Assembly: GCF_026013645.1 (NCBI RefSeq)
Contig: NZ_CP110224.1
Location: forward strand, 1,674,001 to 1,738,000
Direction of reading: 5' to 3'
Source: Virgibacillus natechei
GTDB lineage: Bacteria > Bacillota > Bacilli > Bacillales > Amphibacillaceae
DNA: 64,000 nucleotides
Made by a program: the position numbers and the translations under genes. Below are positions 1-5,317 of this stretch, piece after piece; position 1 is the first letter of the stretch; each line of letters begins with the position of its first letter. The notes under the pieces were generated by a model. That model saw nothing but the letters and a program-made list of their open reading frames with translations, was not told where the DNA came from and did not search any database.

Positions 1-1027
1 TATCTCCCTGTGTAACAAGGTGCATATGTGCTGTTAGGAGTTCCCCCATTTTTTGATGCTGCTTGGCGCCTTCAGCCTTTTTTATTGTTTGTTTATGCTT
101 TTTCATTTTTCTGTTGTTCTTATCTTTTTCATTTTTAATAAAACGGTATAAGTCTTTGGCTTGTTGTTTGACCCGGTCTCGTTCTGCTTTACCTGAATAA
201 AATTGATCCAACATCTTATTCGTTGCTGAAAAGGATTCTTTTTCCCCATCAAAAGAAGTAATCGGAAGTACGTGAAAGTCTTCTTTTTTATTACGGTAAA
301 TGGTAGGTGAGTAGTTATTCTTTTGTATTTGCTCCTGAACCTCCAAAAACTTCTCCATGTAGACTTGTGCTGTACCCAAATTCGCGCGACTGACGATCTC
401 TCTGGCGATAACTGGTGAAAAGCCGACCAATTCAGTGACCATTTGTGCATCTAATTTTCCTGCATTAAAATCAAGTCTTTTAATATATTTTTCTCCGCTG
501 ATTTCTAAAGGGTTTAGTTTCTCCTGCATAGGTGGCAGTTTATATTTCTGACCTGGCTGAATGATTCGATGTCGATTTTGCGCCAGAGAAACATGTTTCA
601 AACTATCGATAATATGTCCTTTATCCTTATCGATTAACATAACATTACTATGTTTTCCCATTAACTCTATAAGTAGTTCTTTATAGGCAATATCACCAAT
701 TTCATTTCTGGTTTTAATAGAAAATGTAATGATGCGTTCCATTCCATATTGTTCAATCTTTTCAATTGCTGCACCAGATAAATGCTTTCTTAGAACCATA
801 CAAAACATAGGTGGTTCCTTAGGGTTGGTATAGGAATCTTCTGTAACATGTATACGAGCATAGGTCGGATGGATGGAAAATAATAAAGTATGGTTTTTCC
901 CTTGGCTCCGAACAGTAAAAACAAGCTCTGTTTCTGTAGGTTGATAAATTTTTGTTATTTTTCCTGGAATTATTTCTTCTTTTAATTCTTCTGTTACTGC
1001 TCGAGTAACAATACCGTCAAATGGCAT
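1..1027 (-). CDS. rqcH: Rqc2 homolog RqcH / NFACT-family protein, N-terminal part (runs off window)
   Basis: RqcH (YloA/FbpA family) binds obstructed 50S subunits and recruits tRNA-Ala to add C-terminal alanine tails in ribosome-associated quality control. Reading the minus strand from ATG at 1027 gives about 342 uninterrupted codons with no stop before the window edge, so only the NFACT-N part and the start of the coiled coil are visible. Recognisable stretches are the MPFDG start, PPMFCMVLRKH (about residues 72-82), RNEIGDIAYK, GKHSNVMLIDKDKG and a Lys-rich coiled-coil start near codon 310. The tRNA-binding DR motif of B. subtilis (D97/R98) aligns with E97-R98 here. Ribosome binding site GGAGG lies 8 nt upstream of the ATG. 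The first 37 coding bases are one copy of a direct repeat whose other copy sits at 2505-2541, so the start region and its ribosome binding site appear to be supplied by an inserted element. Family assignment is firm. Confidence 0.93.
   Translation of the reverse strand, partial: MPFDGIVTRAVTEELKEEIIPGKITKIYQPTETELVFTVRSQGKNHTLLFSIHPTYARIHVTEDSYTNPKEPPMFCMVLRKHLSGAAIEKIEQYGMERIITFSIKTRNEIGDIAYKELLIELMGKHSNVMLIDKDKGHIIDSLKHVSLAQNRHRIIQPGQKYKLPPMQEKLNPLEISGEKYIKRLDFNAGKLDAQMVTELVGFSPVIAREIVSRANLGTAQVYMEKFLEVQEQIQKNNYSPTIYRNKKEDFHVLPITSFDGEKESFSATNKMLDQFYSGKAERDRVKQQAKDLYRFIKNEKDKNNRKMKKHKQTIKKAEGAKQHQKMGELLTAHMHLVTQGD
991..1027. repeat. Left att-like 37-bp direct repeat (rqcH codons 1-12)
   Basis: The string from CTGTTACTGC to ATGGCAT (plus strand) is identical to 2505-2541. 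In this copy it continues in frame into intact rqcH. Its last three bases are the start codon on the minus strand; beyond 1027 the two copies diverge completely. Confidence 0.8.
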
Positions 1028-1104
1028 ATGCTTTACCTCCCGCTTTAATAGGATTTGTCCATTTACACATTCGTTTACATTGGTCGAAATTCCTGGTCAT
1101 AATA

Positions 1105-1132
1105 CACACATAATATACAAGCAATACACAAA
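1105..1132. repeat. Arm-type direct repeat, left copy
   Basis: CACACATAATATAC followed by two variable bases and GCAATACACAAA. It matches 2445-2472 with two mismatches and lies 77 bp inside the left att-like core. Same orientation as the right copy, as expected of integrase arm-binding sites; the function is inferred. Confidence 0.55.
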
Positions 1133-1140
1133 CATGTATT

Positions 1141-1595
1141 CTATATTAAGTCAATCGCTTTTTTCAACTCATCGATATTTTTATGCGTATAAACTTTATC
1201 AGTAATCCCTTGCGAAGCATGTCCCATAATTTTCTTTATCGAAATTTTATTCGCGCCCGCATTATCCATCAAAGACGCAAATGTGTGCCTGCAATCATGA
1301 GGCTTATGATTCATTTCTAAATCTTCCATCAGCGGCTTCCACCTATCCCTGTTATAAGTTTCGTAACTCATTTGAGTACCAATGCTATTTGTTATCAAAT
1401 ATTTATTTTCTTTGTTCATCCTTCTTTTTATAAAAGGGAGGATTTTTTTATTGATGGGGACCACTCTATCTTTACCAGCTTCTGTTTTATTCCGCCGCGC
1501 ATTACCCTTTCGTTGATATCAATGTTAGCATTTTCTATTGTAACTAATTCGCCAGGTCGTAATCCAGTATAAATCATTATTAGAGCAGTATCTAT
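1141..1595 (-). pseudogene. Tyrosine recombinase (phage-type integrase), 5'-truncated and frameshifted
   Basis: The minus strand encodes the catalytic half of a phage/ICE-type tyrosine integrase. An upstream segment (about 1595-1489) reads DTALIMIYTGLRPGEL, containing the box-I arginine. After a frame change at an A run (T run 1485-1488 on the plus strand), the last 107 codons give HDCRHTFASL (box II H-x-x-R), a GHAS motif and the nucleophile context VYTHKN. Adding one A to the run would restore one frame, so a single-base deletion is the simplest explanation. The N-terminal domain is missing: upstream of about 1595 the sequence changes to unrelated plus-strand coding. All catalytic motifs survive, so decay looks fairly recent. 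A sequencing error in the homopolymer could explain the frameshift but not the missing N-terminus. Confidence 0.82.
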
Positions 1596-1604
1596 AATAC
1601 ACAA

Positions 1605-1778
1605 ATGTTTAAAAACGCAGAAAAAATAAGCAAAGCTATTGACATTTTGATGAAGGTAACGGAAGATTTAGAAGAATAAGAAAGGAAAGAACAGATGGTG
1701 AATGTGATACATGATCTGTCTGTTGCACACCAGGGTGTGTTAGGAGATTTGAAAACAAATAGGGGGTCTATTGGTTGA
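1605..1778 (+). pseudogene. Small broken ORF upstream of the lipoprotein gene
   Basis: From ATG 1605 a 24-codon frame (start MFKNAEKISKAIDIL) ends at TAA 1677. The same frame stays open to TGA at 1776-1778 (continuing ERKEQMVNVIHDL). Changing the TAA back to AAA or CAA would give a 57-residue protein with a smooth charged helix across the join, so a nonsense mutation in a small gene is likely. An internal restart at ATG 1695, with AAGGAAAG upstream, could still make a 27-residue peptide. Its stop overlaps the TTG start of the lipoprotein (TTGA), so the two may be translationally coupled. I do not recognise the family. Confidence 0.35.
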
Positions 1779-2383
1779 AGAAATTAATTTTACTAGTAAC
1801 AGCACTAATATTTTTAGTTGGGTGCAGTGAAGCAACTGCCGAAGTAGAAGGGGAAGCAGTGAATTACGAAAACTTGAAAAGCATGAACGAGGAAGCAAAG
1901 GAAGAATTGAGTGAGTTGGGTGAACAAATAGAGGGAGCGGAAAATGATTTATCTTCTATTCGATCAGAACTCAATAATGAAGAATCAGAATTTGAAGCCC
2001 TAATAAAATTAGCCGAAAATCAAGAAGAAGTAGAGGAAGAGGTTAGTGAAGCTGAGTCTACTCTTGAAAACCTGCAAGAAGACATTGAATCTGCTGAAGA
2101 TGAACTAGAAGAACTAGAAGGATCTGTTGTCGAAAAAAAAGAAGAACCAACTACGATAAGCGCTGGTCACTACATCGTGGGTGAAGATATTCCTGCAGGA
2201 AGGTATGTAGCAGAATCAAGCGGCGGTGGCGGTAATTTTTCCTCCCATAACACAAGCGATCGTTTAAACTTTAGCACGATTCTCGGTGATGGAGAAAGAA
2301 GGGAAAGCGAGTATGTGTTTTGGGCGGAGTCAGGAGATCAGCTAAAATTAGGAGTTTCTATAAATTTTACGGAGATTGAGTAA
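1775..2383 (+). CDS. Predicted lipoprotein with coiled coil and small C-terminal domain
   Basis: A 202-residue protein starting at TTG, with AGGGGG 8 nt upstream. Residues 1-17 are a lipoprotein signal peptide (KK, hydrophobic core, lipobox LVGC with Cys17), so it should be anchored on the outer face of the membrane. Residues about 30-118 are a very acidic coiled coil rich in Glu. Residues about 130-202 form a glycine/aromatic beta-type domain containing GHYIVGEDIPAGRY, a motif I associate with accessory Firmicutes lipoproteins. It lies inside the decayed integrative element and is the only intact gene there, so it is probable cargo. Function unknown; an immunity or superinfection-exclusion type role is possible but nothing in the sequence shows it. 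Confidence 0.75.
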   Translation: MKKLILLVTALIFLVGCSEATAEVEGEAVNYENLKSMNEEAKEELSELGEQIEGAENDLSSIRSELNNEESEFEALIKLAENQEEVEEEVSEAESTLENLQEDIESAEDELEELEGSVVEKKEEPTTISAGHYIVGEDIPAGRYVAESSGGGGNFSSHNTSDRLNFSTILGDGERRESEYVFWAESGDQLKLGVSINFTEIE

Positions 2384-2412
2384 AGAGAAGGGGAATAATC
2401 CCTTCTCTTTTT
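2384..2412 (+). terminator. Rho-independent terminator of the lipoprotein gene
   Basis: Nine-bp stem AGAGAAGGG/CCCTTCTCT with a 7-nt loop followed by a run of five T, directly after the stop codon at 2383. Confidence 0.8.
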
Positions 2413-2444
2413 GTTTGTACTTCTTTCAAATCGCTGTAAATAGT

Positions 2445-2472
2445 CACACATAATATACGTGCAATACACAAA
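2445..2472. repeat. Arm-type direct repeat, right copy
   Basis: Partner of 1105-1132 (26 of 28 positions identical, same orientation), 32 bp inside the right att-like core. Confidence 0.55.
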
Positions 2473-2504
2473 TGACCATTTAAAGCCTTGATATATGGGT
2501 GTTC

Positions 2505-2541
2505 CTGTTACTGCTCGAGTAACAATACCGTCAAATGGCAT
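2505..2541. repeat. Right att-like 37-bp direct repeat
   Basis: Identical to 991-1027. This copy adjoins the ancestral rqcH promoter side. Confidence 0.8.
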
Positions 2542-2559
2542 GCAATCACCTCATACGTA

Positions 2560-2588
2560 ATTATAGCATTTTTTGGGACAGGTCTGCA
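2560..2588 (-). promoter_or_regulatory. Ancestral rqcH promoter (sigma-A type)
   Basis: On the minus strand, TGCAGA (2588-2583), 17 bp, TATAAT (2565-2560), followed by the GAGGTGA ribosome binding site and ATG 2541. It now points into the inserted element instead of directly into intact rqcH. Confidence 0.5.
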
Positions 2589-2662: not shown

Positions 2663-5317
2663 ATGAAATGGTATCAATTAGATGTAGACCGTGTCGAACA
2701 AAAGTTACACGTGACAGCGAATAGAGGACTTACTTCTAAACAAGTTGAACAACGTAGAAAACAGTACGGTGCTAATGTATTGGAAGGACAAAAAAATACA
2801 TCAAAGTGGCTGATATTTTTAAAGCAATTCCAGGATTTTATGGTGTTGGTATTGCTTGCAGCAACATTAATTGCCGGATTGCTAGGTGAATTTATTGATG
2901 CAACAGCCATTATGGTTATTGTACTGGTTAACGGTTTTATAGGGTACTTTCAAGAACAAAAAGCAGAAAAGTCGCTGGACAAGTTAAAGGAATTATCGGC
3001 CCCTGTGGCAAATGTACTTCGAAATGAAGAGTGGGGTAAAGTTAACTCGAGAGATATTGTTGTTGGCGATATCATAAAAATAAATAGTGGGGATCGCATC
3101 CCTGCAGATATTCGGATCGTTCAATCCAACAGTATGGAAACAGAAGAATCAGCATTAACTGGAGAATCACTTCCTGTTATGAAACATGCTACTGCTATTG
3201 TGAAAAACAGTTTAGAGGCACAGGACCAAGTTAACATGGGATTTATGGGTACAATGGTTACAAGAGGTTCTGGAATAGGTATTGTTGTCGGCACTGGTAT
3301 GGAATCGGTAATGGGACAAATTGCATCATTAATGGTTAATACGAAAAAAATAATTACGCCACTGGAACAAAGACTCGCTGAGTTGGGCAAAATTTTAATA
3401 ATTCTTTCTTTAGGGTTAACCGCATTAGTTGTTGGTCTAGGGGTCGTTCAAGGACAACCTGTGTATGATATGTTTTTAGCAGGGGTCTCTTTAGCAGTAG
3501 CTGCGATTCCTGAGGGATTGCCAGCTATCGTCACAGTCGCTCTCTCATTAGGTGTTCAGCGAATGATTAGGAAAAAAGCGATTGTGCGTAAGTTATCTGC
3601 AGTCGAGACACTAGGATCTGCCTCCGTTATTTGTTCAGATAAAACAGGAACCATGACAGAAAATCAAATGACAGTGAAGGAAGTTTACCTAAATGGTGAA
3701 CATATTTATGTCACAGGTGATGGATATGATATACGGGGAGAGTATTTTTTAAATAAAAATAAACTTGACGACGATTTTCCCAATTTAAAATCTATGCTTT
3801 TATATGGAATGCTTTGTAACAATGCATCTTTACAAGTGAAAAAAGGGAAATACAATGTTGATGGAGACCCTACCGATGGTGCGCTTTTAGTAGCTGCAAG
3901 AAAATTAGGTTTAACGGTAATGCTTGGCGAGAAATATAAGGTCATTAAAGAAATCCCTTTTGATTCAGACAGAAAGCGAATGAGTGTCATTATAGAAGAT
4001 GAAAAAGGCAGGCGTTTTTTAATAACAAAAGGAGCACCAGATATAATGCTACCTAGATCCACATTTTATGTAGATAAAACAGGTAAGCGTGTTATGACGA
4101 CGACCGATAAAAATAATATTGATTTATCGGTAGGTCAGATGGCAGAAAAAGCACTACGAACAATAGCGATAGGCGTAAAACCCCTATCTAAAGATGATTC
4201 GATAGATACAGCCTTTTTAGAAAAAGATCTTACATTTATCGGGTTATATGGAATGATTGACCCTCCTAGAAAAGAAGTGAAATCAGCAATTGAAGAATGT
4301 AGACAGGCTGGAATAAAAACAGTCATGATTACTGGTGATCATGTCAAAACAGCTCGCGCTATCGCACAGAATTTAAAGCTATTGCCAGAAGACGGAAAAG
4401 TATTAGAGGGCTACCAATTAAATCAAATGTCTGTAGACGATTTGGAAAGTGTAATTGATGATACGTATGTATTTGCAAGGGTGAGCCCTGAGCATAAATT
4501 GAAAATTGTTAAAGCATTCCAGAAAAAAGGGCATATCGTTGCCATGACTGGTGATGGAGTAAATGATGCTCCAGCAATAAAGGCCAGTAATATCGGAATC
4601 AGTATGGGCATAAATGGTACGGATGTAACAAAGGAAGCTTCTTCTTTGGTTTTAATGGATGATAATTTTGCCACAATAAAATCGGCTATTCAAGAAGGAA
4701 GAAACATTTATGAAAACATACGTAAATTTATTAGGTACTTGCTGGCATCAAACGTTGGTGAAATCTTGGTAATGTTATTTGCAATGCTGTTAGCACTACC
4801 ACTGCCGCTCGTACCCGTACAAATTCTCTGGATTAATTTAATAACAGACGGACTACCTGCCATGGCACTCGGTATGGATAAATCAGAATATGATGTGATG
4901 AAAAGAAATCCGAGAAATCCCCGGGAAGGTGTATTTGCTAGGGGGATGGGCTATAAAATTATTAGCCGGGGAATTATGATTGGTCTCGTAACGCTAATTG
5001 CCTTCATGCTGACCTATCAAAATAACCCTGATAACCTTATTTATGGACAAACAATCGCTTTTACAACATTAGTAGTCGCTCAATTGATACATGTATTCGA
5101 CTGTCGAAGTGAGAAGTCAGTATTTTCTAGAAACCCTTTTGAAAATATATATCTACTACTAGCAGTATTATCTTCATTGCTTTTGTTACTCGTTGTTATT
5201 TATTGGGAACCGCTTCAGCCCATTTTTCATACAACGGCTTTAAGCTTAAGAGATTGGATGTTTATCATTGGATTTGCTGCTATACCTACTGTTTTGTTTG
5301 GTTATACAAAAAAATAA
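2663..5317 (+). CDS. yloB: P-type Ca2+-transporting ATPase (SERCA-like, type IIA)
   Basis: Membrane cation pump that exports Ca2+ using ATP, with a phospho-aspartate intermediate. The 884-residue length fits YloB (about 890). Motifs in order: N-terminal cation-ATPase domain (WYQLDVDRVEQKL), actuator TGES near residue 166, PEGLPAIVT in transmembrane helix 4, phosphorylation site DKTGT near residue 326, KGAPD in the nucleotide domain, MITGDH, and TGDGVNDAPA near residue 629. The C-terminal helices include ILWINLITDGLPA and end near residue 884. ATG 2663 is preferred over the longer frame from 2573, because GGAGGA lies 7 nt upstream and the extra residues are not conserved-looking. It is a single gene closed by a terminator, as expected for yloB next to yloC. 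Confidence 0.93.
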   Translation: MKWYQLDVDRVEQKLHVTANRGLTSKQVEQRRKQYGANVLEGQKNTSKWLIFLKQFQDFMVLVLLAATLIAGLLGEFIDATAIMVIVLVNGFIGYFQEQKAEKSLDKLKELSAPVANVLRNEEWGKVNSRDIVVGDIIKINSGDRIPADIRIVQSNSMETEESALTGESLPVMKHATAIVKNSLEAQDQVNMGFMGTMVTRGSGIGIVVGTGMESVMGQIASLMVNTKKIITPLEQRLAELGKILIILSLGLTALVVGLGVVQGQPVYDMFLAGVSLAVAAIPEGLPAIVTVALSLGVQRMIRKKAIVRKLSAVETLGSASVICSDKTGTMTENQMTVKEVYLNGEHIYVTGDGYDIRGEYFLNKNKLDDDFPNLKSMLLYGMLCNNASLQVKKGKYNVDGDPTDGALLVAARKLGLTVMLGEKYKVIKEIPFDSDRKRMSVIIEDEKGRRFLITKGAPDIMLPRSTFYVDKTGKRVMTTTDKNNIDLSVGQMAEKALRTIAIGVKPLSKDDSIDTAFLEKDLTFIGLYGMIDPPRKEVKSAIEECRQAGIKTVMITGDHVKTARAIAQNLKLLPEDGKVLEGYQLNQMSVDDLESVIDDTYVFARVSPEHKLKIVKAFQKKGHIVAMTGDGVNDAPAIKASNIGISMGINGTDVTKEASSLVLMDDNFATIKSAIQEGRNIYENIRKFIRYLLASNVGEILVMLFAMLLALPLPLVPVQILWINLITDGLPAMALGMDKSEYDVMKRNPRNPREGVFARGMGYKIISRGIMIGLVTLIAFMLTYQNNPDNLIYGQTIAFTTLVVAQLIHVFDCRSEKSVFSRNPFENIYLLLAVLSSLLLLLVVIYWEPLQPIFHTTALSLRDWMFIIGFAAIPTVLFGYTKK

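Follow-up and report, generated by a model that had tools for sequence, protein, structure and literature searches.

Why does rqcH of Virgibacillus natechei carry its first codons twice, 1.5 kb apart? In the 64,000-bp stretch of DNA that we analysed (the window), the 5' part of rqcH (fbpA/yloA family) occupies 1..1027 on the minus strand, with its start codon at 1027-1025, and the 569-aa ORF extends past the window. NCBIfam matches to this ORF (fibro_bind_EfbA, E = 4e-179; RqcH_arch, E = 5e-55) are both under their cut-offs, and beyond them we take the protein to be RqcH. A 37-bp direct repeat, 100% identical between 991-1027 and 2505-2541 (spacing 1514), brackets 1.5 kb of insert DNA. It spans codons 1-12 of rqcH and ends precisely on the first base (A) of the start codon. 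Each copy encodes MPFDGIVTRAVT, and from the left one the rqcH frame stays open. Across the 3.87-Mb genome the 37-mer matches twice and has no further match at up to 3 mismatches, and its 19-bp centre, allowing up to 3 mismatches, matches two sites only in 64 kb (0.01 expected). Just inside the 37-bp copies is a second, arm-type repeat pair (1105-1132 and 2445-2472; 28 bp, 93% alike). The initial annotation had described both repeat pairs, perfect in the case of the longer one, and had read the segment as the scar of an integrative element that replaces the start of rqcH.

The insert contains an integrase relic (1141..1604, minus strand) and a pair of short ORF remnants. It also carries an intact lipoprotein-like ORF of 202 aa (1775..2383, plus strand), absent from the initial annotation, with a terminator-like hairpin behind it (2382..2410, plus strand). 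On its left side a GGAGG (1036..1040, minus strand) stands 8 nt ahead of the rqcH ATG and would be an element-supplied ribosome binding site. On its right side the right copy is backed by AGGTG, the ribosome binding site at 2546-2551, and by the extended −10 sequence TGCTATAAT at 2560-2568 (together 2546..2568, minus strand), and then by a divergent cation-transporting ATPase gene (2663..5317, plus strand), the ancestral neighbour of rqcH. The arrangement in the sequence is thus the one first described, with the original promoter, ribosome binding site and ATG stranded on the right and a GGAGG with the same ATG on the left. The left copy re-supplies rqcH with codons, ATG and ribosome binding site, so that its N-terminus is rebuilt in frame, a trait of 5'-end integrators of the dusA type.

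Alignment with close relatives, the check that had been proposed, found the 1.5 kb absent and rqcH contiguous with its promoter. The site is uninterrupted in two congeners (G001 and G002) and in another member of the family (G021), where rqcH abuts the promoter region and the ATPase gene. A single copy of the repeat is found in G002 (1 mismatch) and G021 (3 mismatches), and the sequence now stranded in V. natechei, the ribosome binding site with TGCTATAAT, directly precedes rqcH in all three. A codon pattern for the rqcH start, with up to 2 mismatches, matched in 147 of 159 family genomes. We compared the window with 126 relatives (30 loci from the pattern search, 94 fetched, G002 and G021), leaving out matches plainly not rqcH, unlisted matches and a few listed ones. 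The rqcH start is present at 127/127 loci, and the divergent ATPase gene lies beside it in 107 of the 126 relatives (in the other 19 it was not found within the 1.5-3.3 kb inspected). The gap between the two genes is 1636 bp in the window, as compared to a median of 109 bp (n = 108 loci, window included). Nine integrase probes, four from the clade of the relic and the longest ORF at each of five other integrase loci of the genome, found a match in the window and in 0 of the 126 relatives. Because of this, and because the ATPase gene adjoins rqcH, the ancestral order of rqcH, promoter and ATPase is clear from the comparison, and the insert is, as far as the genomes examined indicate, local to the V. 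natechei genome.

Relatives free of the integrase do not carry the segment, contrary to what ancestral sequence would predict. A 37-bp repeat could by itself also arise if the start of rqcH had been duplicated locally around unrelated DNA, with no site-specific element involved, but directly inside the copies there are an integrase relic and arm-type repeats, and G001, G002 and G021 have the empty site. We rejected this explanation, to which we give almost no credence. The att repeats, the integrase relic and the empty sites together bear out the scar of a site-specific integrative element. Two long rqcH leaders in other genomes, L174 (571 bp) and L179 (968 bp), were considered as further scars and rejected, as neither has a second rqcH start; in L179 (G101) and L174 (G096) an extra 0.5-0.9 kb sits between the conserved TGCTATAAT and the rqcH ribosome binding site.

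The presence of an integrase relic was confirmed by matches to PF00589 in two reading frames (E = 3.4e-15, above the family cut-off, and E = 0.0017, below it). Against a 343-aa relative the relic aligns to residues 194-343, its C-terminal 44%, with a change of frame near residue 229, so that more than half of the integrase length, including the N-terminal part, is missing and the remainder is frameshifted. In a search of the family, a 107-aa piece of the relic matched 22 other integrases at E < 1e-30 (53-73% identity), some of them truncated; these stand well apart from the next matches at E = 1e-8, with one degenerate match between. The highest identity of the relic to any integrase found is 73%.

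The closest integrases (L015, L016 and L017) are at the 3' end of what we take to be an spmB-like gene, whose product has a Gate domain by Pfam, and a pseudouridine synthase gene lies on the other side of the element. Ten further integrase loci are at rpsI (30S ribosomal protein S9, confirmed for one). A total of 55 related integrase loci were confirmed in genome contigs, and 46 of them were sorted by motif into rpsI (n = 15), glutamate-dehydrogenase-like (n = 7, the family confirmed for one locus, L112), spmB-like (n = 3), contig end (n = 4) and other (n = 17). Arm repeats of the TTGTATATTA type also follow related integrases at the spmB-like and rpsI sites, and were not found at L029-L033. 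In a tree the relic falls beside an integrase of an spmB-like site with weak support (83/76). One integrase clade therefore serves several targets, namely the 3' ends of spmB-like, rpsI and glutamate dehydrogenase genes and the 5' end of rqcH. The distant members at the glutamate dehydrogenase 3' end (L110-L116, L121) are from Lachnospiraceae and other Eubacteriales. We also observed that integrase C-termini are identical across three genera at L098, L099 and L103 (V. salexigens, O. massiliensis and Gracilibacillus timonensis), with the same listed downstream ORFs at L098 and L099; this appears to be a recently spread element of the same clade that lacks arm-type repeats.

The core shape is similar at the spmB-like, rpsI and rqcH sites. 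It reads GTTAAC-ATATA-GTTAAC and GTTAAC-GTTAG-GTTAAC at spmB-like sites, GTTAAC-AAGAA-GTTAAC in G020, CTTAAC-GTTTT-GAGAAC at rpsI, and GTTACT-GCTCG-AGTAAC in codons 7-12 of rqcH (V-T-R-A-V-T). By this comparison the proposed cores are 993-1009 in the left att copy and 2507-2523 in the right att copy. The 37-bp identity comprises the core, flanked by two bases at one end and at the other by the stretch up to the A of the start codon. For a crossover, identity within the core should be enough; the 18 bp beyond it therefore resemble a spare N-terminus that was kept in the element by selection. Among integrases whose flanks can be read, those nearest to the relic are at the spmB-like gene, and a phage that normally uses this gene might have taken rqcH as a secondary site. 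In that case the identity should stay within the crossover region; in the window it extends 18 bp beyond the core, up to the ATG, which argues that the attP already held the rqcH N-terminus. We rejected the secondary site as very improbable.

Integration would have proceeded by a tyrosine-recombinase crossover within codons 7-12 of rqcH, between the chromosome and an attP that carried an exact copy from the core back to the start codon, preceded by its own ribosome binding site. Such an insertion would swap the promoter, the ribosome binding site and the first codons while the RqcH protein stays unchanged. We think it likely that the inserted element was a temperate phage and that the insert (1028-2541) is the fused ends of its genome, the middle having since been deleted. 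Att repeats with an adjoining integrase and an empty site in relatives, by which prophages are recognised, are all present. The 1.5 kb between the att copies holds no phage structural or packaging genes, and its status as a relic is read from its ends only.

The case for a phage draws on the relatives at the spmB-like gene. A 17-bp repeat bounds 41.4 kb at this gene in V. subterraneus (G101, NZ_FOEH01000002.1), and an 18-bp repeat bounds 41.3 kb in V. oceani (G179, NZ_BMFR01000001.1). Nine of the 10 G101 proteins scanned had PHROGs matches (integrase, metalloprotease, regulator, portal, head protease, major head, major tail, tape measure and holin); the tenth, a lipoprotein, had weak matches, the best to an Rz-like spanin. 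The G101 terminase was confirmed. Eight of 11 G101 phage probes matched in G179 and three in G020, and by their gene content the relatives in G101 and G179 are phage genomes. These prophages carry the integrases most similar to the relic (73% and 71% across the C-terminal part) and a core shape similar to that of rqcH; they differ in their 3'-end sites, their 17-18-bp repeats and the ~41 kb of phage genes that they retain. The G101 integrase gave 593 matches among 50,697 phage records, all below 60% identity, the best (41.5%) to Butyrivibrio phages.

The ends of the insert follow the order of the G101 prophage. The lipoprotein-like protein of the window (lipobox LVGC by eye, a coiled coil and a C-terminal domain) has two matches besides itself in a large protein database, and within the family some match in 34 of 158 other genomes, many to the coiled coil or the C-terminal domain only. 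Its second-best family match is a 42% homologue in G101 (470640-471194, plus strand), located ~150 bp inside the right att copy. In G101 the integrase gene is at the left att on the minus strand and the lipoprotein gene at the right att on the plus strand, in the order and on the strands of the window, so that the end genes are arranged as in an intact phage, of which G101 is the one example. In G138 a lipoprotein relative is preceded by DNA that aligns with window positions 1605-1752 from the same ATG. Because of the G101 order and the G138 alignment, we read the insert left of ~1593 as left-end DNA and right of ~1604 as right-end DNA, with the middle missing; 1605..1774 (plus strand), with its short ORFs, would be a right-end remnant 5' of the lipoprotein gene. 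The proposed deletion joint (1593..1604) falls in an arm-like ATACACAAA at 1597-1605. This motif has four occurrences in the 64 kb, one in each arm repeat, one at the joint and a distant one, which suggests that the deletion used an arm-type repeat, though the motif at the joint may be chance. An internal deletion of roughly 40 kb would have removed the integrase's N-terminal half together with the phage genes as far as the right-end lipoprotein gene, which is intact. The lipoprotein is a candidate lysogenic-conversion gene. It would resemble the Ltp superinfection-exclusion lipoproteins in being prophage-borne; in the excerpts of PMC3952083 available, ltp lies beside int in the lysogeny module, whereas the window ORF is at the opposite end. 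In G138 an integrase fragment of a different type, beside groEL (groEL by eye), is ~3 kb from the lipoprotein relative, and this locus (L074, 8244-12217) is likely another scar.

The initial annotation had likened the element to ICEs such as SXT in prfC. A site-specific element is upheld and an ICE is not, a temperate phage being likelier from the gene content of G101 and G179. No conjugation genes (relaxase, coupling protein, VirB4) are among the insert ORFs, the middle of the element being lost. Several observations weigh against the phage: the integrase relatives G117 and G100, the identity of 73% at most, the weak tree support and the occurrence of the lipoprotein family elsewhere. G117 and G100, which are at rpsI, matched only the integrase among the 11 G101 probes, and for that reason the integrase alone is no proof of a phage; its clade may also ride on non-phage elements. 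The G101 lipoprotein probe had no match in G179, G020, G117 or G100, and a direct repeat bounding the G100 element was looked for and not found. In G117, a 39-bp copy of the rpsI-side att region (C1:95594) lies 5.3 kb past the right att copy, which would fit another element or remnant in tandem. Integrases move between kinds of element, and integration in the 5' end of a gene is documented for ICEs in the accessible part of PMC4701971, so the lost element might have been an ICE, an IME or a phage satellite that shared its integrase and lipoprotein with phages. Both surviving parts, at the two ends and in the same orientation, were nevertheless found together in one relative only, which is a phage genome, and we regard a non-phage element as unlikely.

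If rqcH is an attachment site of a phage lineage, other genomes may hold it occupied. Full-length elements bounded by a repeat of the 37-bp type at rqcH, which the initial annotation had proposed to seek, were found neither in the family nor in the order, the viral contigs or the integrase loci. None of the 55 related integrase loci is at rqcH (52 had listed flanks, 7 of these with less than 500 bp downstream). Among the 147 family genomes with a matching start, only that of V. natechei (G000) has two close together, counting the listed matches and five unlisted ones. A search of 397 genomes of the order matched the start in 234, and again G000 is alone in having two on the same strand. In G044 and G211 the two matches are on different contigs. 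The two-start search would miss a second att copy with more mismatches. In viral contigs, 30 stretches matched a pattern in a comparison with the RqcH protein and none encodes a relative, and three codon patterns of the rqcH start gave 0 matches each in a search run without a positive control. Close same-strand pairs of a sequence that reads MKFDGI, matched by the rqcH-start pattern with 2 mismatches, were seen in G131:C34 and G133:C3, away from the rqcH of those genomes. Thus rqcH stands as an attachment site on one occupied case, and its repeated use does not, no second occupied rqcH having been found.

For expression, rqcH would now depend on element-derived signals or on read-through from the stranded promoter. 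The region has 9 promoter-like matches where 5.6 are expected (sd 2.5), not clearly above chance, and the best on the useful strand, TTGAAA-18-TAGAAT (1167-1138), is inside the integrase coding end and constitutes no promoter evidence. The native extended −10 is now 1.5 kb from rqcH and faces a 67-aa chimeric ORF (2338..2541, minus strand) in which codons 1-12 of rqcH continue into presumed phage DNA. Since the three terminator-like sites are all on the plus strand, transcription from the native promoter may also read through to rqcH. Re-wiring of rqcH expression by the element is plausible on this layout. Since its integrase is more than half missing and frameshifted, the scar cannot excise by that enzyme or act through it as a reversible switch of the SpyCI type. 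It is conceivable, and in our judgement rather improbable, that a phage lineage has rqcH as its dedicated attachment gene and so places ribosome rescue in the lysogen under phage control. If so, rqcH would lie downstream of the leftward int transcript in an intact lysogen and the RqcH level would follow the lysogenic state, which the collapse of the prophage would have frozen in this V. natechei strain.

Insertions of this kind are known at other genes. The ICE SXT integrates in the 5' end of prfC, another target gene, and re-supplies the gene start. The initial annotation knew of no described element using rqcH/yloA, and none is named in the open-access literature that we searched, to the extent of its accessible text; nothing was found there on spmB as a prophage attachment site either. 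The target thus seems new to that literature, and the locus is one good case of it, seen as a relic. It adds a central gene of bacterial ribosome quality control, rqcH, to the few genes listed as 5'-end integration sites, offers in V. natechei and its relatives a clean pair of occupied and empty sites, and suggests that such a scar can bring a conserved gene permanently under foreign control. Streptococcal ICEs use the 5' ends of ftsK, rbgA and ebfC and SpyCI uses that of mutL; as at rqcH, these are 5'-end sites with an unchanged N-terminus and sometimes a different upstream region (PMC4701971, in part). They are conjugative elements or, for SpyCI, a satellite prophage that can excise, which the rqcH scar cannot do by its own integrase. 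The dusA-specific islands, such as IMEVchUSA3, insert in the 5' end of their gene and supply a new N-terminus and upstream region, as at rqcH; in the excerpts consulted (PMC8409611) they are mobilizable Vibrio islands with shown promoter activity, whereas the rqcH insert is a broken, probable phage relic known from its sequence.
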